64,000 bases of DNA, taken from assembly GCA_030272585.1 (NCBI GenBank), contig BSYQ01000004.1, positions 6,014,001 to 6,078,000 on the forward strand, in the 5' to 3' direction. The stretch is from Bryopsis sp. KO-2023. Lineage: Eukaryota > Chlorophyta > Ulvophyceae > Bryopsidales > Bryopsidaceae. Below the pieces are notes generated by a model. It ran no database searches and had not been told where the DNA came from. It worked only from the letters and a program-made list of their open reading frames with translations. Shown here in pieces: positions 15,440 through 42,885 of this stretch. The translations under genes and the position numbers were made by a program. Position 1 is the first letter of the stretch. Each line of letters begins with the position of its first letter.

Positions 15440-18400
15440 TCAGCTGGAGTGGTTCGATTTTCTTCCAAATATACTTTGCATCCCATTTTTAACTCTTTTC
15501 TTGAAAAGATAAGAGTAAAGCTCGGAGTGGTTCATGTCGCTCGCAATATCAATCGCTTTCCTTCCTGTCTCTCCCTTCGGCTGATTTAAATTCATAACAA
15601 AAATAAATAAATCACAAAGAAAAATAAAATAAAATAAAATAAATTGATGGACAAGTTGAAGGGAAGACTTTGTACCAAACCTCTCTGGTTTGCAAAAAAT
15701 AAAAAAAAAGAGACCTGCTAATAAAATAATCAAATCGAACGCTGGATGCTCAGAAAGAAAGAAAAATCGAAGCAACGCTGTATGATGCAGTGAGGCGATA
15801 AAATCTTAAAAAACATTGAATTTTTTTAACTTTTTTTCCTGGATGTGTATTTTGGAGGGTAGCCCCTGTTGGGGGAACCTCATCACTTTTATGGAAAAAA
15901 AGCCAAGATTTCTTTCCCAGACGCAATGTTTCATTCTTTGCACCAGAAACAGCATACCATCGTTTTTCTGTGCAAATCGGCAGCACCCTCTTCGACCAAC
16001 AGCTGTGTAAATTGAATGTGATTCTGAAACGCCGCTCTGTGGAGTGGTGTAATGCCATCCTAGCAATTCGCACAGATTAACCATTCATTTCTGCATCTCC
16101 ATCAGGATGATGAAAAAAAATTGCGCCTTCTTTTTCTGATCGGCAAATTTCTCTGTCATTTATTCACAGAAAAAAATAGAAAAATTATTTTTTATTTTTC
16201 TAGAAACTGACTTGGCCTGCAATATCCGGATCCGCCCCCGACTTCAGAAGCATGCGGCCAATATCGATGTGATCGTTATCTTGAGCTGCATGCAATGCAG
16301 TCCAGCCATCCTTTGAGGGAAAAAAAACCACCACAAGCATTGAGTGTCAATATTATTTTTTCCTCACTGTCCTGCAGCTGGTCCGACCCAATTATGTTCA
16401 ACAATCCCTATCAGCGATTGTGTGTACTGAACTCCATGCACAAATAAAGCTTGAGGGCAATAGAAGTACAGCTAAAATTAGAAAAATAGGGAAAAAGAGT
16501 GACAAAACAAGTGTGAAGGAAAAAGCGTACATTGGATTGTGCGTTGGGATCAGGGTTGGCTTTCAGCAAAATATCGACCACATCTGCTCTTCCATTGTCG
16601 ACGGCTACATGGAGTGGAGTGAAGCCGATCTATCCATACGTAATCCAAACAGGAAAAAAATTAACAGGGATAATGACACTCAGAATTCAACAAAAAAACT
16701 AAAAGATAAATCAATCCCTCAGAAACTTTTTCAAAATTCAAAAAAAAAAGTTCGGGGTGATGCTGTTTCGGTTTTGGTGTAATAAGCATCTTCTTGAATT
16801 TGAGGGAAAAAAGGGGGGGGGGGAGGCGTTGGGCTATGGTATTAAAAAAAATGCTAAACAAAGGAAATTAGAAAAAGGGCTGCCCCTTACAGTAATAACG
16901 AAGAGAAGAAAATGGAGAGGAATGAAAATTCTTCTTTCGAGGGAAAAGTGTGATGTGACCGTGGTTTAGGGATCCATTTCAAAAAAAATTAAAAAATTCA
17001 ACTTTATTTTTTTGAATGACATATCCTACGTTGCATTTGTGGTTCACGTGAGGGAAAAACGGCAAAAGAGTTTTGATGATTTCCAGGTCTCCGCATCGAA
17101 CAGCATAGTGCAAAGCCGTCCATCCAGCCTGACAACACAAAACAGGGAGGGGAAAAGCCCACAATATTTTTTAAAACATATCTGTACATATTTAAAAAAA
17201 AAAACCTTTATTTTGGGTGGAAAACAAAAAAAGCAATGGCTGGGAAAAGAAAAAAAATAAATAAAAATAAATAAATTTGTCCAATGATGCCCCAGGCAGC
17301 GATAAATTGATGATGAATCACAAAACAAAACCTCCCTTTTTTTTGCACATTGGGAGGACTTCAGTTTGTTTCGATGCAACGAACAGAAAGACAACATCCT
17401 GAGAGAATTTTTACCTCAATGGGTTTTTTTTATCAGGTATTTATTTACCTCTGTGGCCAATGTTGGGTACATGATGTGGCGCTCTCGTTCGGCAAAGTCT
17501 AGCAGCAGCCTTACCACGATCCTGTGGCCTGTGTCAGCAGCTGCATGAAGCGGGCTCCACCCGTTCTATCAGTTTGAAAGAAATTTAAAAAAAGGAAAAA
17601 AAAAACCTCAGTGAAAATATCCACAGTACAAGGACCAGTCACTGCCAAATCCATATTTCTGCGAACATATATGTTTTGTGAGTCTTGCTTTCGCCAAAAC
17701 AACAGGCAAAATACAGAGGAAAACTAACCAAAAAAAAAGTGTACAGATTTTTTACTGTGCACGTCGATGCAAAAACTGGTGCGTCATCATTTTACTTTAT
17801 TTTTCTTTGCCATTGAAAACAAGCTGGGGTTCACCTTGTTGGTAATCATTATGTTGGCATTGTGTCTCAGCAACACATCCACCACAGCTCCGTGACCGGA
17901 GCACGCTGCCAAATAGAGCGGAGTCATGGCTGTGGACTGATATGGGGGAAAAAAGAAGGGGGGAGGGGGAAGCAATAACAACACACGTGTTAAAATTCAG
18001 CTGAAACAGCCTCAGACAAAATATACATACCGTGGACACCGCTTTTGTGTGCCACCGGTCAATGTAATCCATCGTTTTTCAAGCCGAAATTGTTAAGAAC
18101 GGAATTTTGTTTATGCTCATCAAAACTAATGTCTAGAACCATGGGGATATGATTATACATCCCAATATGTATATACAGCTTGACTATCACTCCAACAACG
18201 TCCAATAAAAGCAATCAGGCAAAAAATAAAAAACGCCATTGGAAACTGAAAATATCGATTGCATGCGTGGCAGAGCGAGAATCGATTTTGATAAAATGGA
18301 TGACACGTAAAAATATCTGTAAAAAGATTTTCCTCCTGTTTGCTTACACACATGCAATCTGGCATTGATGTTCACTCCTCTTGCCAGCAAAAATTCAACG

Positions 18401-21400
18401 ATAGACAAATGGCCCCCAGCAGATGCACAATGCAGTGCAGTCATTCCTTCCTGAAAAAAAATACATAAAATACATTTAAAAAATAATTAATAAACAAATG
18501 AGTTATAATAAATTACTGCACGCATGTGTTCCAACTTGACTTGAAACAGGATGGTCAAAGCTATGCGAGGCCAAAGCTGTCACTTCTTGGCACCAGAGAA
18601 AAAGAAGAAAAAGGCGAATCAGCAATAAAACTGATAAAAAAAAAAATCACAATTAGCTCGAAAAAAGGTCCTTTAACACAATCGCAATGCCTGGTGCACG
18701 ATCTTTAAAAGGTAATGGTCAAGGTAAATTTTACAGAAAACGCTCATTTTTTCTTCCCCGTTTGTCTGCAGAGATAGCCTCACGTCATTGGAATCATCCA
18801 GCCTCCAGCCTTCCTCTGCCAGGGAAGCCACGCATTCCAGGTCCCCTTGTTCTGCAGCCATCAGCATTTCTCGGACTGCCTGCACAGCACAGTAAGGGCA
18901 CACTTCATGCTGGTTTTTTCTTTTTCTCTTTTTTTTTTTGTCGTTTCCTCAATCTGTCCTACTCAAAAATTACAACGGCATGGGGAAATCTGAAACGATC
19001 AGGGCCAAAAGTTAAAAATTATGCCACTAAATAACATTGTCCGAATACCTTCCCCAATCAACCACCCCCCCCCCCAAAAAAAAAAGAAGAAAAAAGTGTG
19101 AGATAATCGTACTTCAAATTCGTTCACTCAGGACTGCATCTGTAAAGTGTTCTTTGAAGCTTTTCTAACAAAAAAAATAAAGCTTTTTCCCATTCCTGGC
19201 TTCAGGTTTTCAAATGCACACACACAGGGTTTTTTTTTCCCTTTCCCCATCTTTCTCTATTCCTTGAAAGAATACACTTGTTAATTCTATTTTCCTTAGG
19301 AGGTGCTTATGATCAGAAGCCCACCCTTCGAGAAGATCTCTGGTAAGTATTTCCAGAGCGAAGCACTGAACTTCCGCTGGGTGTTTCCTGTCCAGATTTG
19401 CCTCCAAATTCAGATGGTACAAAATGATCGGAGCGGCCGGAGACAGGTTGGGGGATATGTCCAGTCTTGAGTTTGAAAGAATAGGGGGGGAGGCCATCAA
19501 GAAAAGAGCGGACCAAAAAAAAAAAAAAAGAATAAAAAAAAAGAAAAGATAGAATAGAACAAGAAAATATAAGAAAAACAGAAAAGGTGGGGGGAAAGAA
19601 AGAAGCCGTGAATAAGAAGCACAAGAATAAGATATTGACAAGTGGGCACAGCTGACATGAGTTAATTTTTTCAGCCGTTGCTTGAATTATCAGCGAGAAA
19701 AAGATGTTACAGGAAAGCAACAAAAACAGACATCTTTTTGGTTCACATAAAATCTGCGTGCATGCCAAAAACATTCCTCCCTGGTTTTGAGCGAATAGAA
19801 GATTGAGAAAAAGTAACTGTTGACAGAAACTAACTTTTTTTCTCAAGGGGAACTTTTCGCATCTTTATTATCATTATTTTGTTCTTGAGAAAGGTCATTA
19901 GGACATACATCGGATTGACGAACATCCAAGCGCCGCATTTGAATGATTTCTTGTGGATAAACTGGGCATTCATTCTTGGGGCTTGTGATGATCGACTGTC
20001 GACCCTACCAAGCAAAAAAACACAACAAAACAAATAATCAAACAAACAATCTTTTTTCTTTTCCTTTTTTTTTTGTTCCAATTCAGAAGTCCGAAAAAAT
20101 AACAACTATAATAATAACAGAGCCCACCCTCCAGTAAGTGAACACCTGAAAAAAAAGCTTTTTTTAAAACAAAAATCTGAAAATAGAACCAGGATGGAAA
20201 GAAAAGAGGGAAAAAAAATATATCGTCTTACTGATGACATTGGACCAGGGGCAGGGTCCAGAATTTCGGAAGGAATGATGGGATGTGAAATCGGGTTTGG
20301 TAAAGGGATGGTTTGTTGGCCGATGCCATCATCTGAATCCACGCAATCCTCGCTGATAAGCCGATCTTCGGACGCGATTTTGTAAAGATCAGCCTCCTGT
20401 CTGATCGGCTTCTGGGAAGAAATATGAAAAAGAGTCGAAAAAAATAAAAAAAATCAGCATGACAGCTGTTCGAAATCTTTTCCTCCTTTCTGGAAACGGA
20501 CAGAGAGAGCAACAATCCAATGATTTTGCCGTTGATGATAGACAAAACTGACATGAAAATATCAGTCACAACATGGATATATACATATAGATATAAATAT
20601 ATCCATGTCGGATGCTAGAACTGCGTTCCTCAACCCAAAACAGAACACTTTCACCCACAGTGACGAAATAGAAAGTCCAAAAGAAATCCCTCAATAAAAA
20701 AAAAGGGGAAAAAAAGACGAAAAAAACTGATCGCTATGTAATTCCAGGAAGCCATCAAGAATCTGCTCTCAACAAGAAAGCTGGAAAAGCGACGATCAAT
20801 CTCACCTGAATGTATCCGTTCGCACGCTTCCAGTCTTCTATAAGAATTCTCAAGGATTTATTCTCGACATAACCACAAGTGGTGAGCTTCTTTTTGGTGA
20901 CGGGGCATTTCTGAGGCCCATGGGGCGACAGCCAAACCTCCAAACTCTTCCTGTCATAAGTCACGGCCGATTCTGTCAAAACCACTGGGTCGTCCATGAT
21001 TTCCATGTTGATGGGGCAGTAGAATTCTGGAGGAGGGCTCTCCGGACCAGACAGAGCCCAGAAAAGCAATCGAATGTGGTGTTCTCGGGTGGCGTCCTTA
21101 TGGAGGTTCGCAAAATCCATGTCGTAGAAGAGCTGCTTGGCAACTTGTTTCCAATCCGCCTGCACGTGGAGATTCATGCATAACAAAAAACTCAAAAAAC
21201 ATGCATCCAGGAAGGCAGTTCGTCTTTCCCATTTTCCTTTTCGACTTTTTTTGTTTCTTGTGGATGCATGGGGTGAACTCTTGGTGATACCTCGATGTTG
21301 TCTTTTCCCAACGTTTTTTCCAGGATTTTTTGCAGCATTTCTACGCCTTCTTTCATGCTTATTTCGTTCCCGTAGATTCGATCAGCGATCAGCTGACTCT

Positions 21401-22463
21401 CATCAAAAATCCCCTTCTCTCTGTTTCGCAGAGGGAAATTCGCCCTCGAAAAATCGATTGCCAGCGATCGAACGTCGAACCCCATGTCCCTTGCTGGTGG
21501 CGTTAACAACGAGTTCAATTCTGCGTGGAAAGATACAAGGAAAACAAAATAAAAACAAACACAGCAAGGTTCATCCATCAACAGAAACTGCATCCTTTGC
21601 TTTTGCTTCCACCCACTCCCCCAAAAAAAGGGGAAAAAATAAGGGAAACCAGCAGAACGAGTCAGTTCCAACATATTCTCTCATGAGAAATATGACATTA
21701 TGAAATGGTGCAAGTGGAATTAAAAAGTTGATGGTCATCTCACCGTGGAGGGTGGCACCGACATACTGACAAGCATGTTTGAAATCGGTGCTGATTTGAT
21801 AAGCGTTGATCACACGATACATCCGGGGCACCAAACAAGCCCGAGTTATCAAATTTCTCAAAACTCGCATTTGATGCTCCAACCTCTTGAGCACCTGTCA
21901 AGCGATCAACTCGTCAGCTCAACACATCGTCACTGATAACCCCAAATCCTTGTCGAAATAAAAAATAGAACTGTAAACAGGCTACATGCTCCAGAAGCGA
22001 TGGGCTGGACGGTCAAGAATCGTCAGAAGGCAGGTCTATGGAATTCTTTCCCCCACCCCCCCCCCCAAAAAAAAAAAAAAAAAAAAAGAGGAGCAGAACA
22101 GGACCACAACAAGAAGCAATGGAAAAACAATTTTTATAGCTTTTATTTCAGCTGTTTTCAAAACTAATTTTTAAATTCCACGATACAGATCCCAAATATT
22201 CTTTGAGACTCTCACTGGCTTTCGATGAATTTTGGGGTAACTTTTTTCTTCTTTAATTTTTTTCTTGGATTACTCACCCGGAGTGCCCCTTCTCCCAGTG
22301 CATTGACCTCCTCCAATTGTCGGACATTTTCTAGAACCCCCAGAAGCTTGCGCGTCAGCACAGCAATTTGATCACAAGCTGGAACGTTGACGTTGGCCTC
22401 CAAGCATCTTGCCACTATCCTCGAACCCAGGTCAGAAATGACAGCCACAGCACCTACCCTCAT
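15440..22463 (-). CDS. gene A: U-box / ankyrin-repeat protein, probable E3 ubiquitin ligase, 16 exons
   Basis: Exons: 22463-22278, 21894-21744, 21520-21291, 21159-20806, 20411-20232, 20004-19909, 19465-19325, 18879-18784, 18450-18352, 17936-17835, 17565-17449, 17128-17030, 16629-16531, 16310-16212, 16059-15958 and 15580-15440. All are GT-AG with consistent phases, about 763 residues. Residues ~1-190 are helical and resemble the U-box N-terminal region of plant PUBs. The U-box follows (PPEFYCPINMEIMDDPVV, TYDRKSLEVW, CPVTKKKL, IEDWKR). Three exons then encode a Ser/Pro-rich linker of about 139 residues, and the rest is ankyrin repeats, mostly one per exon (for example GITPLHRAAFQNH). U-boxes recruit E2 enzymes; the ankyrin array would bind substrate. 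The first two coding exons together have the same length as the single first exon of gene B, so one intron differs. Divergent from B. Confidence 0.88.
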
Positions 22464-23377
22464 TTCTCAAGTTCTTTCTTTCGATCTCTCTCTTTCGTTC
22501 GAGTCTTGTCGAAAGCCCACCGAAAAAATTGAACTTAACCGAAGGTGCTATGACAGACAGGGCTGTCTCTTCTCTTTCTTGTTGATTTTTCCTCCCCCAG
22601 CGAAGCCGTTGAACTATCGATCGCAGATTTGTTCAGCTATGTGGTTTGGTGGATCACTTTTTGTTTCTTCAGTCTGAAAAAAAAAAACGATGGAAAATTA
22701 TATGTCAAAAATCCCACAGTCGATCGTTCCAAAAAGATCCTTTCCATTGTGCATCGCTTTTTTTTTTCCAAGTCATGGAAAGTTCTTGATTTCAAAAACC
22801 CAACTAGTTGTTTAGTTTGCTTTTCCTATCTTTCTGTAGGACTCGAGCCATGCAACCTTTCTGTTTTCCTTTTGTTTTTTAAACCTTCAGCTGAAGTGCT
22901 TTTCCACCAACAACAAACATAAACAAACACTTTTTGCAGGGTGATCTAAAACAAACCTGTTCTTTTTTTTTCCAACTCCACCGATAGCTATTCAAACATC
23001 TGCTTTGGTAGATCGTCGATTTCTTAGGCAGCGCTCCCCATGCAAGCCAATACTTCCTGCAGACAGACAATAAACCAGCATTCTTCCAAATACTACGCTC
23101 CATTCAATGTCGCATCATAGAATGCTTTCCCCATCCCCCCCCAAAAAAAACAGCACCTCCCAAATGTGCTTGGGGCCTTCAATCCAGGATTTCCTAAATT
23201 CAAACCCACATGCCCCTCCTCTGGTATCTGATTTGAACCAACAAAATGGGAAGAAGAAGGAAAAGCAATACAAAACCAAAATATTGCCCCTCCCCCCCAA
23301 TTCTTTCCCCCGCAAGTCGCTTTCTCGCCTCAAAACCGCACGAGTTGGGTTCGAACAAAAAATCAAGAGCAACGGCT

Positions 23378-24266
23378 ATGTCCCTTCAGACTGCGGTAGC
23401 CCATCTTATGCGCTCCGCAGAATCACCCCCGAACGCAGACTCCTTGAACGAAATATCCCTATTTCCCCCCAAAACCCTCCCTGAACGTATCTCGGAAATT
23501 TTTCGCGCCGAAAATGTGCAGTGGATTTGTAGACGTACAGACCGAGAACACCTCACCTCCAGATTCGCCAAATTCCTGCAAATTCCCGGGGTGGTTCTGC
23601 CCCGCGAGCAACACCTAGGAAAAAAAACCAAGCGTTGCGTGAACAAAAAGTTCTCGCGTTGTGGGACAAGAGCGCAGTACGGATGTGTTGATTACCTTGC
23701 GCACTCCGAAGTCGGGCGAACAGCGGACGTCCGTCTTTCCTTCCGTCAGCTTTTTTCACTGTACTTCGCGTTTCCGCCGGATCTAGATGTGACGGAGCCA
23801 ATGTGTCAACACCTCCAATCGTAGAAGTTCGCTTGAAGTTCAACTCATTGAAAAACTGCTGGTTTCCTTGCTGGTGGCGGCAGGAGCGGAGAACCGACGA
23901 AGAAAAGAAACGGTCGGCGCAAAACCGCAAGTGGAATCCTGGTGCAACAGAGTTTCACCCACACAGTGCCGAAATAGCACCTTTTCCGTGAAAATCTCAG
24001 AGAAAATATCTATCAAGGATGACCTGATCTGTCTGGACAGAGCGCCATCAAACATATTTCGCGTGAGGTCCCTTCCCGAAACTGATAGAAAGGAAACAAC
24101 AAGCAGGACCAGAATCGGGGGGAAGAAAGTGAAATTTGATATTCGCAAGCTGATGCCTAGCAGTAGCACTCCCTGGCGACTAGTGAGGTGCCACTCTGAA
24201 TGTTCCAGCAGTCTGGAATGGCATGTGCATTTTCATGCTCGGATGGCCAACAGGGTGTCTCTCTAG
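23378..24266 (+). CDS. candidate hypothetical gene in the A-B spacer
   Basis: Two stretches read like protein. The first starts at the ATG at 23378 and runs about 70 codons (LPERISEIFRAENVQWICRR, LTSRFAKFLQIPG) up to a GTGGTT donor-like site. The second runs from about 23826 (SSLEVQLIEKLLVSLLVAAG) to 24179 (KVKFDIRKLMPSSSTPWRL), before GTGAGG. I could not find a donor and acceptor pair that joins them in phase, and I do not recognise either part. They could be exons of an unknown gene or GC-rich promoter sequence that happens to be open. Confidence 0.25.
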
Positions 24267-25740: not shown

Positions 25741-28700
25741 ATGGAGCGAATGTCGCCGATGACCACTGTGATCACTCTGGGCAGTGAAATCGTTGCGATT
25801 TCCCACAGAAGTTCGGACACCTCCAAGTCATGCAGCCAGTTGGCGAAGTTGATCAACTGGCTGGTGGCGGTGATGGTGAAATTGGACGAGGCCGGCGTTT
25901 TGACCGGCAACGAGGATGGGGAGGGTTTGCTGGAGGATTTAGGCACTCAATTGCAGAACACCAGGCAACTGATGGAAAGAGGAAGCTCCATGCCGTTGGT
26001 GTACAGCATGATAAATGCTTTCCAAATCAATTCGCAATTTCGGAACGCCTGTCATTCCATCGGACTCACTCTGAAAGGTCAAGATTTTATTTTATTTTTT
26101 CTTTTATTTTTTGTCAGTTTATTAAGAAAGGGAGGGAAAAAAAAAATTGGGAGTAACATTGCATTTATTTTTTTTTGCTTTTTAAATACAAATCATGCAA
26201 GGAACCAAAAGCGGCTGGGCGGCCTTTGGAACCAAAGAAAAAGAAAAAGAAGAAAAAAACAAGTATCAGTTTGTTCAGCGCTACATAATTTGGAACCAAT
26301 TGCGCAAAAAAAGGAAAACGGTTTGTTTTTTTTATCGTAAAAAGTAAAATAATAAAATAAGAGAGTGTGTGTGTATATCCGCTTTTAAAATAAATCTAAG
26401 GTACATTCATTAGCAAATCAAACCGTGTCCACAGCTAGGTGATTTTCTTTAAAAAAAGAAAAGAAAAGTGTGTGTGTGTGTGTGTGTGATCAGCTTTGAG
26501 CCTGGTGTTACGCAGCTTTCGCGAAAGCTCCACCCGTAGCCTCCGGGAGGATGTTAAAAAATTGGAGGCTCGATTTTGCAAGGCCGTTTTTCCATTGGAT
26601 GAGCGCGAAATGAAATTTTTCACAGACACTCGCAAAATCACGGGCCAAATTTCGAAGCGAACGATATCTGCAAGGGATGGCATTCTGCAAGTCCAGCAAT
26701 TGCTTAAGGAAATTGTTGATGTGGACCGGATCACGGTGGGGTGCCACTCTGGCGGAGTACCTTCAGTTTCTTTTTTTCCTCCAATGCATGGATATTTATG
26801 AAATAAAAAATAATAGTTGGGTTTTTTTTCTCTTTGGAGTGTATGTAGCCATGCTTTCCAATGTCCCCCTTTTTCTCCCCTCTGGAAAAACAAAAACAAA
26901 ATATTAGACGATATGATTTTGGAAAATCACTAGTCTCATAGCAGAAACACAGGGGAAATATTTTTTATTTAGTATAATAAATGATCTCACTCTTTTTCAT
27001 TTTTCTTCTTTTTTTTTCCCTTGTAACCTGTTGAGAATCTCACTGTGTGAACCCTAATGTCTCCCCCCAAAAAAAATCTCGACACTGGATCCTCTCCTAT
27101 GGAATTTTTCTGAAATGTTGCTCCTGGCGTCAGAAAAAGACTCTTTTATTTTGAGAGGGGGTCATTTTTTTAAATTACCCCCCCCAAAAAAAAAGAAAAG
27201 ATGATTTCTGAAGCTGATTTTTTTTCTCCCTTTCTCTCAGGATGAATGGAAGCAAGTTGCGGAGCAGTTGTTTCACGACATGGACGTCGCTCGCGAAAAG
27301 AAAGATCGAACAGAGGAGCATTTCACTCGACAGCTTTTTCAAGCGATCATCGGCCCCGAAAAGCCTTCTCCAGAATTTTTCTGTCCGATCAGCTTGGAGC
27401 TGATGGATGATCCAGTGGTTTTGATCGACACTGCCATCACTTACGAAAAGAAAAGCATCGATGCTTGGCTGTATGCGTATGGTTCAGCCACCTGTCCAGT
27501 CAGCGGGAAATCCATCAATCTCACGTCGCATGTGCATTACGTGGAAAACAAAGCGTTGCGGAGCTTGATCGATGACTGGAAAAGGGATCATGGTTCACCA
27601 AGAGTGAGTTATTTGTGTTTCTGTTTTTCTTGGAGGGATTCCGCTTTCGATTCGAGAGGAAGAAAAGAAAATCGAAAAGGATGGACACCTGTTTTTTTCC
27701 CCAATTTATTTTTTCCGACTCCTATGCATTTTTTTCACATGCATTTAGGAAGGTAAAAAAAAGAAAATGTTGCAAAATGTTGAAAGATTTCAAAAAGAAA
27801 GTTGTCGATTGGAGCTCCCCCTCCCTCCTCTGCCAAAGGGAAAAAAAGGTTGTGACCCCCCAAAAAATCCTGGAAAAAAAGTGGTCTGAGGAAACAACAA
27901 TCAAGCAAGAAAGATGATAGTAAGAGTGGGACGATTTTGTTCTGACCTGTAACTCTGTGATGTGAGTCAGACCCCGGAAAGCTCTGATAGGGAAGGGGCG
28001 TTGGATGTCAGTCATGCTTCCACCGCGAGCGAGTTTTCCCAAGGCCGTGAGCGGAGCGACAAAGAAAGCGTTTCCGAATCTGGCTCTGCTCCACACTGTC
28101 ATTCTTCTCGACCGAATTCGTCCAATTTCATGCACAGCGGAGTCGAAGATTTTGTGAATGGTCTCAAAGTAAGCTGTGATGAGTGATTTTGGGTTTTTTG
28201 TTTTTTTTAATAATTCAAACCAAATGAAGAGCACAGATAAGAAAAGTTAAAGGTCAATTGTGAACTTAGGGAATTTTTTTTTGTTTTCCTTTTCATTTCA
28301 CCTGTAAAAATGAAGGTGGGCGTTTTCACAGACCGTGAACCAGAAAGCACAGGAGACTGGGCAAGGTTTGTGATGCTCACGGAATCAATCTTTTTTTCTC
28401 CTGGAGGAAACCTCTCATCGAAACGAAAATCGATTCCTGGGGTGTTTTTTTTCTTTGGAGGGTTGCAACCTGGTGTTATTTTTTTTTCCGAATATGTGTG
28501 AGTTTCGATGCAGGAGTCCCCGGCTCACGTGGGCAAGACCCCCCGTCGAAATCAACAAGCGACCCGATCGGTGGCTGTTCAGAATAATGAGTATGATTCT
28601 TATGATAGAGGCACAGACCCGGGTTATTGGACGGTGGCCGAACCCAGCAAGAGGGGTTGGATCCCAGAGGTGAAAAAAAAAAAAAAAAAAACGATTAACT

Positions 28701-31700
28701 TCCTGGAAAGGGGACATATTTTCGCTCGTCGAGTTCACTACATTGATGCCGTCTTTGTTTTTCCCTACGTAAAACTAGGACCGTATTGTTTGAAAATCTT
28801 GGGGTTTTTTTTTGTCTTCGACTTCACAGGCAAACATTTTTTATTTTTATTTAATTTTTTTAATTTGAACACTCGACTTCAAATCCACCTGATTGGTTTT
28901 CGTTCTATATTTTGCAGCGACAGAAAAATTGGCACTCTTTGCTGAAAAGAGTGTGTATATATTTTTGGTACATTTTGACGCACGAGTTTTTCCCCTCCCC
29001 GCTGAACTTTGTCTGTTTTCCTTTTTCGTTTTTTTTTCACCATAAAACAGCTTTTTTTACATTTCTTTTTTATTCAATTCTTTTTTCTTTTCTTTTTCTT
29101 TGGGGGCCCCAGGTGGGCGATGAGATGTCAAGAACCGGCTCGAGTGCAGGGGAGAATATCAATATGCACAATGCAATCCACACCAACACCGAAAGCAGAG
29201 CACCCACCCAGGTGATCAGGCCTCGAAAACACAAAACACGAGACTGTTTTGTTTTTTTTTTGTCAGGGGCCAAGGATTTGTGGGATTTTAGTCATCATAG
29301 CCTCAGAACAAAACTTTGAAGAATTTTAAATGTACAGCGTCAAGTCAGGAGTTTTCAGAAGAAAAAAAAAATTGCGTAATAGATGCATTTTGCAGAAAGG
29401 GGGGAGCAGCTTCTGTTGTTTTTTTGGGGGGCTGATGTCTTGCTTAACACAGGAAATCGGGTTGTGTTTGACAGAGCATTCAGAGTCGAATGCTGGGGTG
29501 TTGTCAGCATGGAGACCTCCGAGGATTGTTCGAGTATGAAGCCAAGGGCTGGAGCCCCATGTATTCAGACGAGGTGAAAACTGCTAGTCCAGAAATCCTC
29601 TTTTTTTTAACGTTTTAAACATTTAAACGTTTTTTTAAACGTTCTTTCGTGGACGTCAACAGAAAGTGGCTTTTTTTTTAAGTAAAACGAAAACAAGATT
29701 TTAATATTTCTAGTTTGCTATAAGAGTAGGTTGTCCAGAACCCCCCCCTCCCCAAAAAAAAATAATAAAAGAAGGAAAAAAGACCTTCTCGAAAACTTTC
29801 TTGGGAGTTGGCTGTTGACCATTTGTTTTCAAAGGATTGATTGTATTTTCGTGACATGCTGGCATATTTTTTGTGTTTGTATGAAGGGGGGACGTACCTG
29901 TTTGCACCTTGCAGCAGCTTATAATCACTTGGAAATTGTGAATCATCTTTTGGAGATGGGTCATAATGTAGATGTCACGACTGAGGTGCGCTATTCCATA
30001 TTGACAAAAAATAAAAATAAAAATTATAGATATATATATTCCTCATTGGAGATCCACCCTAATGACACCGCTTGTCCAAAAAAGCATTCCTAGTTTTTTC
30101 TCCTGCTTGTTCTGTCGTGAGTCCTGAAAACCTCAATAAAACCCCGAAAAAAAAAAAAAAAGAACCAAAAAACCCAAAAAACCCAAAAAAAACCAACTTC
30201 AAAATGCAGTCGGGGAGTGAAGTGTGGTTTGTTTCGTTTTGTCAGGGAGATTTTGCAACGCCGTTGTATATGGCTGCTTGTGGGGGCCACACAGAGATCA
30301 CACGGGCGCTTCTTAGGAAGGAGGCCAACGTTATGATTGTGAATAAGGTGGCTGAGTTTTTTCTTTTAGATGATTTGCAGGAACAACCGTACGCAGGAAA
30401 ATCAAAAATGAAGGCAGTAATGGAGGTTACACTTTTCTCTCACTTTTTTTTTTTTTTTTGATGCGGAAAAAAAAAAGTCCATCCATAACTTGAACAATGG
30501 GTAGTAAACCCAAAAAATTTCATCGATCCTTTCTTATTTTTTAGATTGCTGTTTGTGATGGTATGGAGATGCTGCTTAAAATACTGGTCGTCATTTTGTT
30601 CAATTTTTTTAACTTTTTTCCATTCTTTTTTTTTTTTTTTTTGGTTGTGATAGTATGGTTGGAGCCCTTTGCATGCTGCAGCAGATCAAGGTCACTATGA
30701 AATGGTCAAAGATATTTTGGATCATGCTCTCAGTGCTAAATTGAGGACTTACGTTAATCTTACAACTGAGGTAGAATAAAAACAAAAAAATTATACAGAT
30801 ATCTAAAAAACAAAATGTATTCAAGAAACCACTCATGTTAACTTTGTTCTCGCAAGCAGGAAAAAAAGAAATTCGCTGCAGTTCGTTGAAAGGTCTTTTT
30901 CTTTTCCCTCGAGAATATGGTCGATTACTTCTTCTCCTGTTGTTTTTTTTTCTGGTCCAAACTGCATAGTTTTTTTCTTTTCTTTTTTGAAGTCGTGACA
31001 TTTTCTTTTTTCATCAAACCACAAAAAATTGTTTTTTCAAGATGAATCTTGAGGATGGCATAACATACATTCACTCACCAAATAGGCAAAAAATATGCAT
31101 GCATTCATGTCCACAGTATGTTTTAATTTTATTGGTTTTGTTCTTCGATTGTTTTTTTTTTTTTGGGGGGGGGGGGGGAAGGGGGGCTGGAGGGTTGGCA
31201 CGGACAGTATCATTTTCATGTTGTTGATTGGGTGGAGTTTGTCGATTCTCGCAGGCTGGGTGGAGTGTTTTGCATCATGCCACTAGGTCAGGAAATTTGA
31301 AACTCATTCGACTTCTGCTTCCTCTCTGCGGCAACCATCTCAATCAGCAATGCAACGTAGGTCATATTCTGGAACTCCTTTTCAAAAAGTTTCCACCAAT
31401 CTTTTTCTGCCCAAGGAAATCGTAGAGAGAAAAGAAAGAGAGGAAAAACAGAAAAGACACCTCGAATCTTGATTTCCTTGAACTCAATTGAGTGCTAATC
31501 CAATTTTTAGGCTGCACATGGCTTCTTCAGGGAAATGCCATTGCAGCGTAATTACTTGACCTATTCGTTGTTGTTTTTCTCGTTTTTTTCCCCAAAGGAC
31601 ATCAAAAATATCGGTGAAACGACTAGAGATCGTCTCCGATCGATTCGACATGTTATTTTATTCTTTTGCGAAATATTTTTTTGATGTGTGTGGGCAGGTT

Positions 31701-33209
31701 GGCTACACCCCGCTACATATAGCAGCCGACAATGGTTTGGATGATGTTGCTGAGCTCCTATTGGAAGCAGGTGCCGATGCCAATGTTCAATCAAAGGTAA
31801 TCACAGGTATTGATATTTTCTTTAATATTTTAAAGAGAATTTGAAATATTTTCTTTAACATTTTCAAGAAAATTTAAAATATTTTCTTATTTTATAGGTA
31901 AGAATGTTTTATTTTTTTAACCTTTCGAGTGTTCTTTTTTTTTTGCCTGTTAACTGTGACTGTTCTCTTGACCAAAAAACAATGAACAAATGCAATGTGC
32001 TGTAATGAAGCTTTCATTTTATTTTATTATTTTTCTCTTCTTTAATTCAAACGAGATGTTCTGATGATGTGCTGCATGGAGTTATTATTTTCATTGTGTG
32101 TGCATTTTATCTTTGAAAACTGTTTTTTTTTTTTTTTGGATTTTTTCGCTTTTGAGAAAAAGAGGAGCATTCTCTGTGTTCAAGAAGTGAAAGATGTTTT
32201 TTGTTTTTTTGTTTTGGCATTGTAAGGATGGATGGACTGCCCTCCATGTTGCACAAGATAAGAATAATATTGTCATTTGCCGAATGCTGTTGAGGAAGAA
32301 TGCCAACCCTGATCTCGCTGGACAGGTGCTTTTAAATTGGTTTATGTTTAATTGGTGTTGGGCAAAGTGTTTCAAGGAGGGTTTTGAGTTGTGTTGCCAG
32401 TCGTGCGATTGCTTTAGGGCAAAAATAAGTTGATATTTCCAAGCACTTGATCCGTTTTTTTTTAATTTCATGTTTTCTTTTCTTTATGTATTTTTTTTTT
32501 TCGGCCTCCTTCCCCCCCCCCCCCTTATCCATATTTTTTTTCCTCTCCTATTTTTCCTGAAATCTGTTGATCTGTGAATCTTCAAAAGAAAAAAATAATG
32601 TCCATTATGCAGGACCTCGTTCACAAAACAAAATGGTTTTTCTTTATTATTGCAGTTCTATCGTGGTGTTTTTTAGTTTAGTTTAGTTCCCATTTTTCAA
32701 CTTTTTTTTTCCCTTAAAATAATGGTCAGGATGGCGTTACTGCACTTCACAGAGCTGCTTTTCAGAATCACATAGAGTTTGCAAAGATCTTGGTCAAAGA
32801 GGGAAAAGCGAGTTTGAACAAGAGGACCATGGTAAACCCAGTTCTGCTATGCTCAAAAAAAAACCTTTTTTCTCTGCATGTGATAATATATTTCATTGCA
32901 AATATGTGTGTGGTGATGTGGCAGTTTGTTTTTCTTTTGGAAAACTGATAGGATCTGTTCATCCATGGAGTTTCGTTGTGTTTTTGCCCCCAATGGTTTT
33001 TCTTTTTAGTGTTTTGTCCGCTTGATTTCCTCTGTAACGTGTTTTTCTTGTTTGTTTGTTTGTTTAATCAGCCGAACGGGAGGTCGGGGCGAAAAGCAAT
33101 ACAAATTGCAAGCGATAGAAATCACCATGAACTGCACAATTTCCTCTTCAAATCTGGACTTCAGCGAATGTTTAGAGTGAGCATGGGAGGGTTGAATAGC
33201 AATAGCTAG
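25741..33209 (+). CDS. gene B: U-box / ankyrin-repeat protein, probable E3 ubiquitin ligase, 15 exons
   Basis: Exons: 25741-26077, 26494-26735, 27241-27603, 27971-28168, 28514-28669, 29113-29211, 29475-29573, 29887-29985, 30246-30347, 30654-30770, 31255-31356, 31698-31796, 32227-32325, 32730-32831 and 33072-33209. Every junction is GT-AG with matching phase, about 783 residues. The start was chosen at ATG 25741 because it aligns with gene A's N-terminus; the exon itself begins at 25719. Domain order is the helical region (to ~193), the U-box (SPEFFCPISLELMDDPVV, TYEKKSIDAW, CPVSGKS), a Ser-rich linker encoded by three exons, then about nine ankyrin repeats (GWSPLHAAADQGH, GYTPLHIAADNG, GWTALHVAQDKNN). 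The last exon (GRKAIQIASDRNHHELHNFL) is a degenerate capping repeat. It is the largest paralogue, mainly through its longer linker. Confidence 0.9.
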
Positions 33210-35253: not shown

Positions 35254-35670
35254 ATGACCAATCCCAATCAACCCTCGCCGTTCGCGCGGCTCGGTTCTAA
35301 CATCTCATACCGCCTTCCTCAGGTGCCTGGAGGCGCACGGGGGGAAAAAGGGTGTCGTAAAAGAACGTGGCGTAGGAGGTTGGGCGTAGAATTTGAACTA
35401 TTTTTGGAAGCGCTGCCGCAGGTTGACAACTCTGTTCCGGCCCCTCACCACGTCACCTATCTCACAAGAGCTGCAGGACGTATCACCAGAAGGAAAGAAG
35501 GTGAGTGGCAAGGGTTTTTTTTGTCTTTCCTGCCTCTCGCAGCCCTACAAAATATAAGGAAGCACGCGTGGGGACTTTACGACCACGCCGTTCGTGCCGG
35601 AGGGCGTTCTTTTGAACCTTTCCTGTTACGACACACCCTTGTTGGCTTCTGTCGTCGCGAGCTCGGGTAG
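35254..35670 (+). CDS. small unrecognised protein, two exons, 124 residues
   Basis: Exon 1, 35254-35500, ends at AAAGAAG before GTGAGT. Exon 2, 35543-35670, starts after CTCTCGCAG. The phases match. The product is basic (KGCRKRTWRRRLG; RAAGRITRRKE) with a C-terminal part rich in Arg, His and aromatics (KHAWGLYDHAVRAGG, LLRHTLVGFCRRELG). The size and basic character recall small mitochondrial or ribosome-associated proteins, but no family is recognised. A further small intron (CAG/gtgcct at 35324 to ccgcag at about 35427) would also keep the frame and give about 90 residues. The 42-bp second intron is shorter than most introns here. Confidence 0.45.
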   Translation: MTNPNQPSPFARLGSNISYRLPQVPGGARGEKGCRKRTWRRRLGVEFELFLEALPQVDNSVPAPHHVTYLTRAAGRITRRKEGEWQGFFLSFLPLAALQNIRKHAWGLYDHAVRAGGRSFEPFLLRHTLVGFCRRELG

Positions 35671-36899
35671 CGCTGCTTACTATTAAGACAACTCACGAGT
35701 TTCGCCGACACGTCTGCGACACGGGTTTTCGCTTGCTTTGTGTGTGCGTGGAAAGGGGTGGGGGTAAAGTTTCGCTTTGTTTCCTTGCACCGTCGACATC
35801 CGCCCCGACTTTTACGTCCCCGTCACGTGATCCATATTTGCTCGTCGGATAATTGAATGCCGCCCTTCCGTTTTCCGCGACAGCCTGAATTTGCCATCAG
35901 GAAGCGAACGACCTCCGGCTGAGCGTCGCTGATCTTTCGCGGAGGGCGACACCGAAGCAGTTTGACAAATGGCGTGGGTTAGTTTTTCGATCTTGGATTT
36001 GTGTCGACTGAAACGACCGTTACGTTCGACAACGTAACGCCGCACCCCGTAACTCTACAGTAGTTACTGACAGATTGGGCCGTTAGAAATTATGCCTCAG
36101 TATGTTGTCCAGTACAACCTGATTGTCTGGGCAAACCTCGTGTTTGAGAGGACTGTGGGTGCATAATCGCGTAAAAACTCCTTCTGCACTCGCGATCACA
36201 TCACGGCCTCCAGCAAAACCGCGATCGCGGCGTACCCACGAGGAAGAACCGTCGATCGACTGGACAGCGTAAATGAGTCAGAGTGGGAGGGGTTTCGGCG
36301 AGTGGTTAGTTTCGACGCTCAGTGAAATAAAGGTGGGTGGCGGAGGGCAAGCGCCGGCTCTGTCTCCCCCTAGCTTAAATTCAAATTCGTAGGTAAATTG
36401 GGAAGGGAGAAAAACAATACTTGGAATGTTTTTTGAAGCATTTTCTTGTGGAGGGTGATTTCTGTCTGTGGAGATCGACTTACGGAAACAACACCCGCGC
36501 AGCGATCGGATTTCGCTGCGCCATCCGCGCGTTTCCATAACAAAGTATGCGAACAATTTTTTTCTCGCTTCGGCAGCACAGCTTCTCCTCTTTGTGTCGT
36601 TGAATGAAGGGGGGGGAGGGGTCCTTTGTGCGTGTTGTATTTTTTTTTCCATTTCAGAATTCGTCATCGGACGGTTGTGAAATTCCGCGCACGTGTTCGC
36701 TCGGGTGTCGAAAATCCCCGCAGCAGGCTCGCTAGCTTCACCGCGATATAACAGCAACATGAACCCCCCAAAACACCCAAAACACAACCTAGGGTATTTG
36801 TAGTAATAACCTGGCCTCGGCTCAACGAATTGATCTCCGTCCACGAAATCGGCGTGTTCTGACTTCGATCGTTTCCAACGGTCGCAGGAGATTTGCGAC
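35671..36899. promoter_or_regulatory. upstream region of gene C
   Basis: Mixed to GC-rich sequence with no supported exon. It holds the promoter and 5' UTR of gene C. GGTCGCAG at about 36881-36888, just upstream of the ATG, looks like an acceptor and suggests a 5' UTR intron, as in gene B. Confidence 0.4.
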
Positions 36900-39800
36900 A
36901 TGAGCGAAGTGGGGTTGCCTCCACAAGATACGCCCGATCGCGATCGACCGGAGGGGGAGTTTAGTCAGCGCGCATGCGAGCAGCTGGCCATCCTGATTCG
37001 TTGCTTGGTGGATGCACTCCACAAATTTCAGCACCTGGAGGCCGATGTGCTGACGAACAGCGAAGAAGCCCAGCATTTGCTGGAGGAACTCAAGTCACAA
37101 CTGCATCAAGCCAAAACCCTGGTGGACCGCTCCTACAAAATGCCCTGGATGTACAAGATCATCAATGCGTTTCAAATCCGGAGCGAGTTTCGTAATGTCT
37201 GTCATGCGTTGGGCCTCACCCTGGAAGGTAGAAATCGATCAATAGGTTGTTGGAAAAAAACAGACAGAAATTCACACTTTGTATTAGTCATGTCGATGAT
37301 TTTCCCCCCCAGAATTTGTACATTCAGTGTGGAAACCCATCAACAACAGGGCAAATGATTTGTTAGAAGGCGATCGGTTTTCAGTCCATTGTTCAGACAT
37401 GATTACTGAGTGGGTTTGTTTGGGGACGGGAAAATTTTAGGTTTACACTCGCTGCTGTCCTCCGAGAAAAATCAGCTGAAAGACGATCTGAAGAAATTGG
37501 AATGGGCTTTTCGAAACGCAATGTTTCCTATGGATTCCGTGGAGCTGAAAGTTTTCAAAGAGGCCAGGAACATTTCCAGCCAAATCTACAGAGCAACCGT
37601 TACCTTATCCCAGGGTGTCGGGTTGTTGAGGGATATGCTGGAGAAGCTTTTTGGAGTGGAAAATGTCCATGTGAGTTTCAGGAAATACATATGTGCAAAT
37701 GTATTTTTTTTCTCCTCCGATATCCTTCTTTCCTTTCGAAAAACTTTCAGAAAGATTTGCGTCAAATTCAGAGAGTGTTCGAACATCTTTTCAGTCGGAC
37801 AAATGTCTCAATTGATCGATCGACTGGTGAATGAATGCAGGGTCAATGGAAGCTGGTGGCGGAGCATCTGTTTCGGGACATGGATGCTGCAAGGATGAGA
37901 AAAGATCGAATGGAAGAGCATTACCTCCGGCAGCTGGTGTGGGCGATGTCAGGTCAAGAAGCCCCTCCGGAGTTCTATTGTCCGATCAGCTTGGAAATCA
38001 TGGAAGAGCCTGTGGTGCTTTTTGAAACGGCGGTGACTTACGACCGAAAGAGCATCGAAACTTGGCTGTTTGCTTACGGATCGAACAGATGCCCCGTCAG
38101 TGGGAGGATTTTGTCGGAAGCCGTGTTTGTCGAGAATCGACCTTTGCGCAGCTTGATCGAGGAATGGAAGAGGACGCACTTTGCTGTAGATAAGGTACCA
38201 AACAAAATGCATCGGTTGAAAACTGGTGGAATGGCGTGGTTTTTGTGGTGGACAAAATAAGGGGATTTGGAGCAACTAGGAATTTGAGCGAGGGAAAAAA
38301 GTTTTTTCTGCTTTTTATGTTTAGGATGATGTGCCGGACTCTTTGACTTCCAAGTTTTCTGGGGATGAGGAAGAGGAGGAGGATATGCTGAAACAGTGGG
38401 ATACCATCAACAGCATTGAGAAAACCGGGACGGCGAGCTGTGTGGAGGCGGTGAGCTGTCTTTTTCTGGGTTTTTTCGACGCCTGTACTTCAAAGTATAT
38501 CTAAGTAATTATGAATATATATTTGTTGTACAATCTTCATAAACACATGGACATTCAAGATCCCATCCCATCCCAACTGAAGATTTTGCATCCATACATT
38601 ATTATATTTTGAAAGAATGTTTTTTATTTATTTTTAATTATTTATTTATTTATTTTTATTTTTTTGGGGGGGGAAGGGGGGGGGGTATTTTGGTTGTAAT
38701 ACGAAGGAGGTTTTCGTAAACGCCCCAATCAAAAGATACTTCAATGAGAAAAAAGAAAGGATCGAAATACTATATGGCTATGATGAAATCTGAAAGAAAG
38801 TTTAGAAATTTTTTCTCTATGCAAAAAAAAAAATCGAAATTTTTTGCTGACATTAATTGCTATGGAGGTCGATATAGCCATAGCACCATCAATACAATGT
38901 ATAATTTTTTATTTTTTTATTTTTTTTCACAGACTGACACGATGGAGTCTGACCCTCTGGAGTTTCTTACCAACACCGGCGAGGATTGGAATGGGGTGAG
39001 CTGAAGTAAAATGATCCAAAAATATTTCTTGTATTTTTTTTTTTTAATTGAAAGGTCAAAAATTCGGACATAGATTTTCATAATGAAGAGGATTTTATTT
39101 TTATTTTTTAAAACTTTCGAGTCTGCAAGGTTTCGTCTGGTCCTATGGAAGAGTTGAGGTTTTGCTCGTGTGGTGTGTTTTCTACGACAACTTCACCAGA
39201 ATATGACGAGGGGGGGTTCTTTTAAAAGCATGTCGATTCTGTCCACTGGCTCCGGAAGTCGAACAAGACAAAGGCTAAGGGAAAAGGTATGCGTAACGAC
39301 AAGAAAAAAAAAAGGTCAGCACAATTTCGACCCAGCGCCAAGACAAATAAGTAAATGAACAAAATAAGGAAGAAACATAAACACCAGTGCGATCATGAAT
39401 ATTTTTGCTTAAAGTGTTTTTTTGATTATTTTCCTGTGGTGGGAAAAAAAAACAGGAGGTGATGCTGGAAATGATGGCTGCTGCCGAAGATGGGGATCTG
39501 GAGGCCGTTATTGAAATTGGGGATGCTGGCTGGGATTTAGCAAAACGAGATCAGGTTTGTCATTCTCCAGATCGATATTTCTATTTTGACCAACTCTTTG
39601 TGATGAGAGGAAAATGTAAAAAGAACTGTGTTACAGATTTTCACTTTATTTTTTTTGGGGGGGGAATGATTTTCTTTTTGGTATCTGAAATCAATGCACT
39701 CTTCGTAAAGAAATAAATTGGAAGCTCATTTTTTCAGTGGGTGGGGCTATACTCTTGCAGCCTGGATGTTTTCCTAACCACGAAAAAAAGAGGAAAAGAA

Positions 39801-42800
39801 AAGCTATTGGCAGACTTGTTGAAGCGCTCCCTTTTGTGTTTTTTTTTCGTATTGCAGTCAGGGAGGACCGTTCTGCACCTCGCTGCTGCTCAAGATAGAC
39901 CGAAAATTCTCGAATATTTACTTGGCAAGGGATTGGATGTTAATGCTGCAACCACGGTGGGCATTGGGGTTTTTTTTCCCATTAATAGCATTTTTGTGCA
40001 ACACAGCTGGTGGAACATGTCGGTCAACAAAGATCCTATTAGTGATTTGTCATTCTTGTCGCAGCCAATTGCAATTGAAACTTGACTGCACAGCTGTCAG
40101 AAGCTTCCCCATTTCTCAAAGTCCTCCAAAACATTATACCCTGACCCAATCCAGACCCCCGACCCCCCGACCCCCTCCCCCACACACAAAAAAAAAATAG
40201 ACAGCGAAAGATAGTATCAAATGGAACCGCGACATTTGGAAAACTGTTCAGCCCGGAAATTTCCTAAAACAAGAGACGTCGGACTGAAGATGATTTTTCT
40301 GTGTGTTTTTCCCAGGGGGATTGTGCAACATCACTGTATCTGGCAGCATTGGCTGGACATTACGCTTCTGTTGAAGTTTTGCTGGCGCATGGGGCCAATG
40401 TGGCAGGCATTAACCAGGTGTCTCTTCTCTAACGGTTGCACTTGCAATAATCAACTTTCAATAGAACTTGGCCCCCATAACTCCTTGTTTGTTCAAAACT
40501 GTCCTCATTGTTTGTTTTTAACAGCATGGATGGACAGCATTGCATGCAGCTGCTGACCAAGGGCACGGAGATGTCAGCAGGTTATTGTTGGAACATGGGC
40601 AAGAGTGCGGTGTTGCTTTGGGTGAAATGCGATCAGTGGTAAGGCATTCTGGAATCCAGTAATTATGTTTCTGCTTTGGAATCCAGTAATTATGTTTCTG
40701 CTTTTTTTTTTCTGGGCGCAACATGTATATATATATATTTTTCACGCAATTTTTTTTTTAATATTATCTACATGAGTTTTTTGAAGTGTTTTTTTGGTGC
40801 TTGATGTTACCAAAAAAAAAATCTTATTGAGGGAAAAAGAATGACTAAGGGAAGATATGAATACAGGCTTTGTTTTGAAAGCTTTTTTTTTTTTTGCTGG
40901 ATGTATAGTCGGGGTGGACAGCATTGCATCATGCAACTCGCCGAGGGGGGATCAGCACAGTCATGCAGATGTTGCCGTTCTACATCGATGTCAATCTCAA
41001 ATGCGAGGTTTGTTGACGCTCCATCGACCATATATATATACATAATTGTGTCTTTTTTTTTTTTTTACCGAGACTGTTCATGTTCCATCCCGAAAAAAAA
41101 GAGTAAAAGTTGCAAAAAAAAAAGGTGCTTATCTGTCTCAAAAAAAGCAAACTGAATGCTGGATTGAATTGTACGATAACAAAAGGAGTGACATGATTGT
41201 CATGATGTGTTTCACATTTATTGTTCTATGTTTTATTTATTGTTATTATTATTTTATTTTTTTGTGGGGGTAATAGGTTGGCTGGACGCCGTTGCATGTG
41301 GCTGTGGATAATGGGCATCGAGACGTCGTTAAACTCCTTTTGACTGCTACTAACGCTAATCCAAACGTGCAGTCCAAGGTGAACAGTTAGATTCCACACT
41401 GGCATGTGCTCACAATGGCATTTTTCTGGATGCTTCGAGAATTTCAGTTTCTTGGTTTTGCGTATGACAAGCAATTTTTTCGTTTTTTTTTTCTTTTTTC
41501 TTTCTCCCCAGATTTTAATTGTTTCGCACAAAAGAGACCACACCAGCCGAGTGCAAGATTTATCCGGAAAGTTTCATTCAAAAAAAATTTTTTTTGCTCC
41601 GAGTCCAAAAGGTTTATAGAGTTTTTAATTTTCTTTCAACCTCATTCGTAATACCCTTGCCCTGACATGCGGGCAATTTTTTTTTTTGAGACTTGGAGGT
41701 AACGTTTTCAAGTTCCTTCGGTTTCAAGGCATAAAATAGATAGCGTTCGTTTTGCCATAGAAAGACGATGAAAAATAAAAATAAATAGAGAGCGAATCTG
41801 TGTGAATGGAGCTTTTTTTTTCCCTGTTTATTTCCCAAAAAAAGGATGGTTGGACGTCGCTCCATGCTGCTCAAGACAAAAACTACATCGATATTGGGCG
41901 GGTGTTGCTGAAGTATGGTGCAGACCCGGACATTCAATCCGCTGTGAGTCTCTTTTTCCTCGTCATTAACCGAACATATTGCTCTTTTTTTTCTTTTTTT
42001 TTTTTTGCAGTGGTCATCTCTGGAAGAAAAAAAGCAGCAGTGTTTTTGTTGTTGTTTACCTAGAATTTCACGTTCATTTTGGCAGCGTTGAAAATCATGA
42101 TAGGGGCATGGATGCTCTTACGCAAACCACTGTTTGATGTGAACGTGTAAATTTATGTCTGTGTTTATGCTGACTTTTTGTTTTTTTCTGGAACGAGGAT
42201 GAAAAGAAAGGAAAAAATTGTGTCAGATGACTTGGGATGAGCAAAGAGAGTGTAAATCAATGCAAATTTTGGAATTCGATGCTGAAGTTAAGAATATGGA
42301 GGTTGAACAAACAATGACAAAAAAAAAAATGTTGCTTGTTTTAGGAGGGAGTGACCGCCCTGCATAGAGCGACATACCTCAACCATCTGGAATTTGCAAC
42401 AATGCTTGTTTCTGATGGAAAGGCAGACCTCCAAAAGAAAACCAAGGTGGGTTTGGACTGCATGGCTTGACGGTTTTTCGCTTTATTTCAATTGCGATAT
42501 TGTAAAAAGACGCGTTCCTGTTTCAAACCGTGGAAGAATGCGTTTTTTTTATTTCTTTTTGGAGAAGGTTGAAAAAAAAAGGGAAGATGTCGATTCATTT
42601 TCTTATTTATGTTTTTATCTATTTTCTATTTTTGCATTTTTTTTTATTTTTTTTTTGGGGGGGGGCAGGAGGGGAGGATCAAAATTCATCTGATGCTTTT
42701 CTTCATCATTTTTTTTTTTTTGGATATTGCCATTTTGATTGCATTTGTTTTAAATATATTTTTATTTTATTTTTGTTCAGGCGGGCAGGAGAGCCATGCA

Positions 42801-42885
42801 AATCGCAAGCGACCTTGGTCATCAGGAAATCTATAATTATCTCTTCAAGAAAAGCTTGCGGCGAATGTTCAAATCTCGAGGCTGA
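36900..42885 (+). CDS. gene C: U-box / ankyrin-repeat protein, probable E3 ubiquitin ligase, 15 exons
   Basis: Exons: 36900-37227, 37441-37670, 37841-38194, 38325-38450, 38933-38995, 39200-39286, 39456-39554, 39858-39956, 40316-40417, 40525-40638, 40909-41007, 41277-41378, 41845-41943, 42345-42446 and 42781-42885. All GT-AG, phases consistent, about 702 residues. The N-terminal helical region (ACEQLAILIRCLVDALHKF, MPWMYKIINAFQIRSEFRNV) resembles the U-box N-terminal domain. The U-box spans about residues 215-290 (PPEFYCPISLEIMEEPVV, TYDRKSIETWL, CPVSGR, LRSLIEEWKR). A short acidic-to-Ser-rich linker (exons 4-6, 92 residues) leads to ankyrin repeats encoded one per exon, each 99-114 nt and phase 0. 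The acidic run DEEEEEDM is unique to this copy. It is the shortest paralogue and in tandem with B. Confidence 0.9.
40650..40703. repeat. 27-bp direct duplication in a gene C intron
   Basis: A 27-bp unit starting TGGAATCCAGTAATTATG occurs twice back to back with no mismatch, inside the intron after exon 10. Confidence 0.85.

Follow-up and report, generated by a model that had tools for sequence, protein, structure and literature searches.

Three neighbouring genes, A, B and C, probably encode green-algal U-box ligases in which an MLKL-type N-terminal bundle is combined with ankyrin repeats, a design that differs from the armadillo version of land plants. They lie in a window of 64,000 nucleotides, the whole stretch of DNA analysed here (C4:6014001-6078000), from a genome of 91,088,769 bases in 28 contigs. 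With a probability of roughly two in three, and judging from sequence, we read them as single-chain U-box E3 ligases from a family that has expanded in the lineage of this siphonous green alga, most likely a Bryopsis. The computed part of this reading comprises the domain order, the exon structure, the family size as a lower bound, the family-level homology to MLKL, and strong purifying selection in one pair of loci.

Gene structure of the cluster

Gene A is on the minus strand, and B and C are on the plus strand (Table 1). All three are intron-rich and follow one order, from an N-terminal helical domain through a U-box and a linker to nine ankyrin units (R0-R8). The ankyrin-scoring open frames in the window form three co-oriented series, each downstream of one of three U-boxes. 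The initial annotation had described this architecture, with 'about nine' repeats, at 15440..42885. Pfam and the exon models show the architecture to be real in all three genes, the repeats come to nine units per gene with one per phase-0 exon, and both ends of the stretch hold to the base, as the stop codon of A ends at 15440 and that of C at 42885.

Exons were obtained with a small splice-aware gene finder and by comparison among the three genes. Their final ends were set by hand against the paralogues, and spurious small exons from the single-gene mode of the gene finder were discarded. Each gene begins with N1, which is divided between two exons in A, and N2; the U-box exon (354 nt in both A and C), the linker exons, and the nine repeat exons come after them. 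The repeat exons before R8 are 81-117 nt long, mostly 99 or 102, and all are divisible by three; the short one is R4 of gene A (81 nt). Among the exon ends checked, AG was present at 34/34 (12/12 in A, 11/11 in B, 11/11 in C) and GT at 33/34 (12/12, 10/11, and 11/11), the miss being the donor of the U-box exon in B; since the ends were set by hand with AG and GT in view, this tally is a check and not independent proof. Across six paralogue loci, in-frame AG..GT ends were found for 41/41 R exons before R8, partly by construction, as the script sought in-frame ends only.

The linker exons are the least certain portion of the three models. The linker had been described as Ser-rich, which is true of B (17 Ser among 68 residues in exon 27971-28174) and clear in neither A nor C, where single linker exons hold 5/57 and 5/42 Ser, respectively, and the C exon is acidic.

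Table 1. Features of genes A, B and C, in positions of the window.
Feature	Position	Strand	Basis
Gene A	15440..22463	-	splice model, paralogue comparison, Pfam U-box and Ank
A, N-terminal exons	N1 22463-22278 and 21894-21744; N2 21520-21291	-	
A, U-box exon	21159-20806	-	
A, U-box	20818..21033	-	PF04564, 59.6 bits, genome scan
A, linker (uncertain)	includes 20411-20239	-	
A, ankyrin array	18879-15440	-	
A, ankyrin exons R0-R4	18879-18784, 18450-18352, 17936-17835, 17565-17449, 17128-17048	-	
A, ankyrin exons R5-R8	16629-16531, 16310-16212, 16059-15958, 15580-15440	-	
Gene B	25741..33209	+	splice model, paralogue comparison, Pfam; R8 end includes stop codon
B, N-terminal exons	N1 25741-26077; N2 26494-26735	+	
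B, U-box exon	from 27241; donor approximate, near 27592-27604	+	
B, U-box	27370..27591	+	PF04564, 47.2 bits, genome scan
B, linker	27971-28175 and others	+	
B, ankyrin array	29475-33209	+	
B, ankyrin exons R0-R4	29475-29573, 29887-29985, 30246-30347, 30654-30770, 31255-31356	+	
B, ankyrin exons R5-R8	31698-31796, 32227-32325, 32730-32831, 33072-33209	+	
Gene C	36900..42885	+	splice model, paralogue comparison, Pfam
C, N-terminal exons	N1 36900-37227; N2 37441-37670	+	
C, U-box exon	37841-38194	+	
C, U-box	37961..38179	+	PF04564, 54.3 bits, genome scan
C, linker	38325-38450 and others	+	
C, ankyrin array	39456-42885	+	
C, ankyrin exons R0-R4	39456-39554, 39858-39956, 40316-40417, 40525-40638, 40909-41007	+	
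C, ankyrin exons R5-R8	41277-41378, 41845-41943, 42345-42446, 42781-42885	+	

U-box and ankyrin modules

Checked by HMM, the U-box and ankyrin segments proposed in the initial annotation score well above the Pfam cut-off in A, B and C. On the spliced models, the U-box reaches 56.4 bits in A (E = 3.3e-15), 43.8 in B (E = 2.9e-11), and 51.6 in C (E = 1.1e-13), against a cut-off of 21.4. The CP[IL] and CPV motifs, which we take to be those of the U-box loops, are kept in 8/8 aligned members. A, B and C are putative U-box E3 ligases, and probably have E3 activity.

The ankyrin segments match Ank_2 with E-values of 2.3e-57 (A), 3e-58 (B), and 3.9e-71 (C). Seven of the nine repeat units in each gene score above the cut-off with PF00023, and the R0 and R8 repeats look degenerate. 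Downstream of C, at 46590-47762 on the plus strand, the window also holds an intronless frame of 391 aa that is mostly ankyrin, with five two-repeat matches over residues 22-354.

A scan of the window with a typed ARM consensus returned zero matches at E <= 0.1, and a Pfam scan of the spliced models found no NACHT or NB-ARC domain in A, B or C. The sole NB-ARC match in the genome at E <= 0.001 is at C1:9949559-9950143 on the plus strand; it is above the cut-off and lies in an open frame of 1639 aa.

The family across the genome

The genome scan gave forty-five U-box matches, and twenty-nine of these places were scanned for further modules (three in the window, twenty with up to ~7 kb downstream, and six as short loci of ~3 kb). 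Bundle, U-box, and ankyrin repeats occur together in at least ten genes. Eight of them (A, B, C, L009, L010, L011, L013, and L014) lie within C4:5.2-6.1 Mb, so the local expansion originally proposed from A, B and C extends beyond these three. The other two, L025 (C5:1.58 Mb) and L026 (C5:0.11 Mb), are a diverged pair. The collinear order N1-N2-U-R0..R8 recurs in the paralogues, with single units undetected in some. Other loci carry parts of it: no N1 was detected in L012 (U-box and ankyrin) or in L016 on C19 (N2, U-box, and ankyrin), and no bundle in the U-box-ankyrin genes L007 and L022. In the stretches scanned, no ankyrin was detected after the bundle and U-box of L017, and L015 (C19) has a U-box only.

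Ankyrin exons of the C4 family begin near the start of the repeat, and several of those in the gene-finder models of the C5 pair are 99 nt long and start in its second helix. The two registers suggest more than one acquisition of ankyrin arrays by the bundle-U-box scaffold, or else a second gain of introns in a different register. The tree of the U-box exon supports a split between L025/L026 and the rest. Seven of its nine inner branches are open, so that it gives no firm branching order for A, B and C or for the members next to them; the three genes do not group together. Of the two alignments, A1 contains seven members (L012, L013, L015, L016, L017, L025, and L026 are outside it), and A2, made without L011, L012, L015, L016, and L017, was for summary use only.

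The initial annotation had ankyrin standing in for ARM repeats in this lineage. That describes A, B and C, though the genome also contains a U-box-ARM gene, L027 (ARM_PUB 48.5 bits against a cut-off of 33, gene-finder model). In L019 and L020, both on C4, ARM repeats precede the U-box, whereas in plants they follow it; ankyrin and ARM ligases thus coexist in this genome. At C8:5.88 Mb and C12:0.78 Mb, ankyrin matches lie upstream of a same-strand U-box and may represent an ankyrin-then-U-box order, although the C12 pair may be two genes, given a gap of ~4.4 kb and an L021 model without ankyrin. Elsewhere in the assembly, C28 carries psaA/psaB. A gap of ~2.1 kb separates the two matches to psaA (C28:26106-30404), as would be expected if an intron interrupted the gene. 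The psaB product matches PDB chain 6igz_B, from photosystem I of Bryopsis corticulans, at 1701 bits, well ahead of the next chain at 1577, so that the alga is most likely a Bryopsis.

The N-terminal bundle

A family-level profile and a predicted fold place the N-terminus among the four-helix bundles of the MLKL/RPW8/HeLo superfamily. The region had been recognised as helical; its nearest relative by sequence, the MLKL executioner bundle, had been missed. AlphaFold2 predicts the N1 exon of B (25741-26076, +) to be a four-helix bundle (mean pLDDT 84.4, pTM 0.77), with its main helices at H6-23, H29-51, H58-83, and H93-111 and a short one (H86-91) between the third and the fourth. When this model was searched against 350,542 chains with Foldseek, MLKL (6d74) was at rank 1 (TM-score 0.69, probability 1.00, E = 0.13) and designed helical proteins were at ranks 2 and 3; Rx-CC followed at rank 8 and NRG1 CC-R at rank 26 (TM 0.62), and every match had E > 0.1.

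In sequence, a profile of seven N-termini searched against the PDB had MLKL chains as its seven best matches (best E = 1.4e-6). A profile of N1 exons from eight sequences, with the C5 pair added and without A, matched MLKL at E = 2.5e-9, and a designed helical protein at E = 5.4e-6, which indicates that helical composition contributes to the score. Individually, eight of the nine N1 sequences have a Pfam MLKL_N match with E <= 1, three of them above the cut-off of 27 bits (C, at 36900-37226, with 28.1, L010 with 30.7, and L025 with 29.3; best E = 2.6e-7). For C, the score is 27.4 bits when N1 is taken with N2 and 26.7, just under the cut-off, in the N1-N2-U protein. N1 of L014 has zero match to MLKL_N, and the matches of A (E = 0.031) and B (E = 0.013) are weak and below the cut-off; the latter two leave the case for MLKL kinship unchanged, as it rests on the family profile and the fold. 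Reversed N-termini gave 0/7 matches to MLKL_N (in Pfam only, not the PDB), and two of the seven had weak unrelated matches.

Other domains match N1 more weakly, among them DUF7792, RPW8, and MCAfunc, all below cut-off; MCAfunc is matched by 3/7 members, with a best E of 0.02. PUB10_N is matched by 0/7 members at E <= 1 and its cut-off is not reached. The one PUB10_N match in the genome is weak and falls where N1 of L017 lies (E = 0.049, 20.3 bits against a cut-off of 32.6).

The link between bundle and U-box recurs across the genome, where 6/6 matches to MLKL_N (E <= 0.1; three over the cut-off) and 9/9 matches to the N1 exon of L014 (E <= 0.1) are upstream of a same-strand U-box. Human MLKL has an IITLG stretch that is retained in the first helix of L009, and the first helix of gene C is diverged. 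Column identity averages 62% in the U-box exon (eight members) and 53% in the bundle (seven members). Outside the linker exons, no (pseudo)kinase was found C-terminal to the bundle in A, B or C, which have the U-box and ankyrin repeats there instead.

Selection and the ankyrin face

L014 (C4:6.00 Mb) and L016 are 87-93% identical by piece (blastn), and C19, which carries the latter, may be a haplotig or a duplication. The two loci were compared over 484 codons, which take in N2, the final 94 codons of the U-box exon, and R0-R8. They differ by twenty-eight synonymous changes and one nonsynonymous change (dS 0.087, dN 0.0009), a dN/dS of 0.01 for one pair that does not cover the bundle, as no N1 exon was found for L016. 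In this pair, U-box and ankyrin exons alike are under strong purifying selection, and the substitution pattern supports the exon models.

We also compared variability between position classes of the repeat in eight related paralogues (without L012, L015, L016, L017, L025, and L026), using concave and outer classes that we assume to be those of designed ankyrin proteins. Mean entropy is lower at concave than at outer-helix positions in R3-R7 (0.427 versus 0.611; 31/20000 permutations as large) and in R1-R7 (0.477 versus 0.664; 5/20000), in a permutation that treats positions as exchangeable. The Trp conserved at ankyrin position 5 may have a structural role. An arms race diversifying the ankyrin face was considered and dropped, as concave positions are less variable than the outer ones and dN/dS is low in the one pair. 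The low ratio and the conserved face fit a constrained E3 family with a shared ligand.

Possible functions

In the reading that we prefer, the U-box would recruit an E2, while the concave ankyrin face, conserved between paralogues, would hold a ligand or substrate class common to them. The four-helix bundle may then act as a membrane, partner-binding, or oligomerisation switch over where or when the ligase acts, a role suggested by that of its relatives in MLKL, RPW8, and HeLo proteins. What distinguishes the paralogues would be their expression, linker, or bundle, with the ligand recognised being common to all.

Much of this is shared by a reading of A, B and C as ordinary PUB13-like regulators, with ankyrin in the role of ARM. 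It has the same E3 core and denies the bundle its switch role, the likeness to MLKL being a matter of common superfamily and mechanistically meaningless. We regard this as a serious possibility, if short of an even chance. The weak MCAfunc matches and the L017 match to PUB10_N speak for it, as does the MCAfunc-U-box-ARM protein of streptophytes, seemingly the most ancient MCAfunc protein according to excerpts of PMC8049495. The MLKL_N signal, with its best E orders of magnitude stronger than anything for MCAfunc or PUB10_N, argues the other way. A different reading makes A, B and C proteins of a cell-death or immune type. The bundle would permeabilise membranes as an executioner, the ankyrin repeats would act as the sensor, and the U-box would be a ubiquitin module for self-limitation or triggering, the whole forming an NLR-like system for an alga in which NLRs are few. 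The family-level homology to MLKL, the fold resemblance to MLKL and, lower down, to Rx-CC and NRG1 CC-R, the IITLG stretch in L009, the local multigene cluster, and the single NB-ARC match in the genome are all consistent with such a role. We nevertheless consider it unlikely, as the dN/dS of 0.01 (one pair, without N1) and the conserved ankyrin face are unlike diversifying immune receptors and the first helix of gene C is diverged. A ubiquitin-gated MLKL-type membrane switch is a long shot: release of a ligand from the ankyrin groove, or autoubiquitination by the U-box, would free the bundle to target or perforate membranes. If it were true, such proteins might, for example, seal off or sacrifice damaged compartments of the giant coenocytic cell, and the fusion of an MLKL bundle to a U-box would exist in chlorophytes and hence possibly date from before the chlorophyte-streptophyte split.

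Two further explanations concern the gene models and their origin. The U-box and ankyrin exons could belong to separate neighbouring genes: the linker exons are uncertain, the multi-gene mode of the gene finder broke the genes at the linker, and L017 and L015 have a U-box without ankyrin in the stretch scanned. The same co-oriented order recurs, however, in C4 paralogues separated by as much as 0.8 Mb, and models of the C5 pair join U-box and ankyrin through short exons (in single-gene mode, which forces one chain), so that we think separate genes highly improbable. What would favour a gene set derived from a virus or a bacterium is the abundance of ankyrin-rich proteins in giant viruses and symbionts. 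With many introns, one per repeat, and 0 of 44 pattern matches confirmed when the U-box exon alignment was compared with viral contigs, such an origin is scarcely credible.

Comparison with known systems

The initial annotation treated the joining of U-box and ankyrin as a novelty, which was over-stated, as five such U-box proteins (CrPUBs), in a family without ARM, are described for Chlamydomonas in the excerpted text of PMC4378952. A U-box with ankyrin repeats in a chlorophyte is common to both systems. As a difference from A, B and C, the same excerpts mention no MLKL-like bundle or tandem family for the CrPUBs. Among open-licence papers, searched by title and the start of the abstract, we found no description of the bundle-U-box-ankyrin architecture, although one may exist elsewhere.

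The parallel drawn earlier with plant U-box-ARM ligases is right in kind. Streptophyte proteins with MCAfunc, U-box, and Arm (the AtPUB13 and AtPUB45 clades) likewise run from an N-terminal domain through a U-box to helical repeats in one chain, as excerpted from PMC8049495. They differ from A, B and C in having ARM where ankyrin is found here, and the N-terminus here scores far higher with MLKL_N than with MCAfunc or PUB10_N. The same excerpts place MCAfunc in streptophytes only, with none in Chlamydomonas and Volvox. Our results link two literatures, that on the MCAfunc N-terminus of streptophyte U-box ligases (PMC8049495, in part) and that on the MLKL executioner bundle, here in a chlorophyte. 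Should a wider tree confirm a common origin, the bundle would have been fused to the U-box before the green lineage split, with the exchange of repeat modules coming later.

Fungal HeLo NLRs with ankyrin repeats and plant RPW8/CC-R NLRs also combine a bundle of the same superfamily with C-terminal repeats, according to portions of PMC9815663 and PMC12881547; A, B and C carry a U-box in place of their NACHT or NB-ARC. The relation of MLKL, HeLo, and RPW8, and NLRs with a Cbl-N bundle in nonflowering plants, are treated in the available parts of PMC12881547 and PMC11218826. With the MLKL executioner domain itself (PDB 6d74, 2msv, 6zvo), the N-terminus shares the four-helix bundle and the profile match, and the short helix between helices 3 and 4 in the model of B N1 is also a feature of the MLKL/HeLo-like models in excerpts of PMC9815663. 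In necroptosis MLKL, the bundle is followed by a pseudokinase, whereas here it is followed by a U-box, and this raises the testable question of whether an MLKL-type bundle linked to a U-box binds or perforates membranes.
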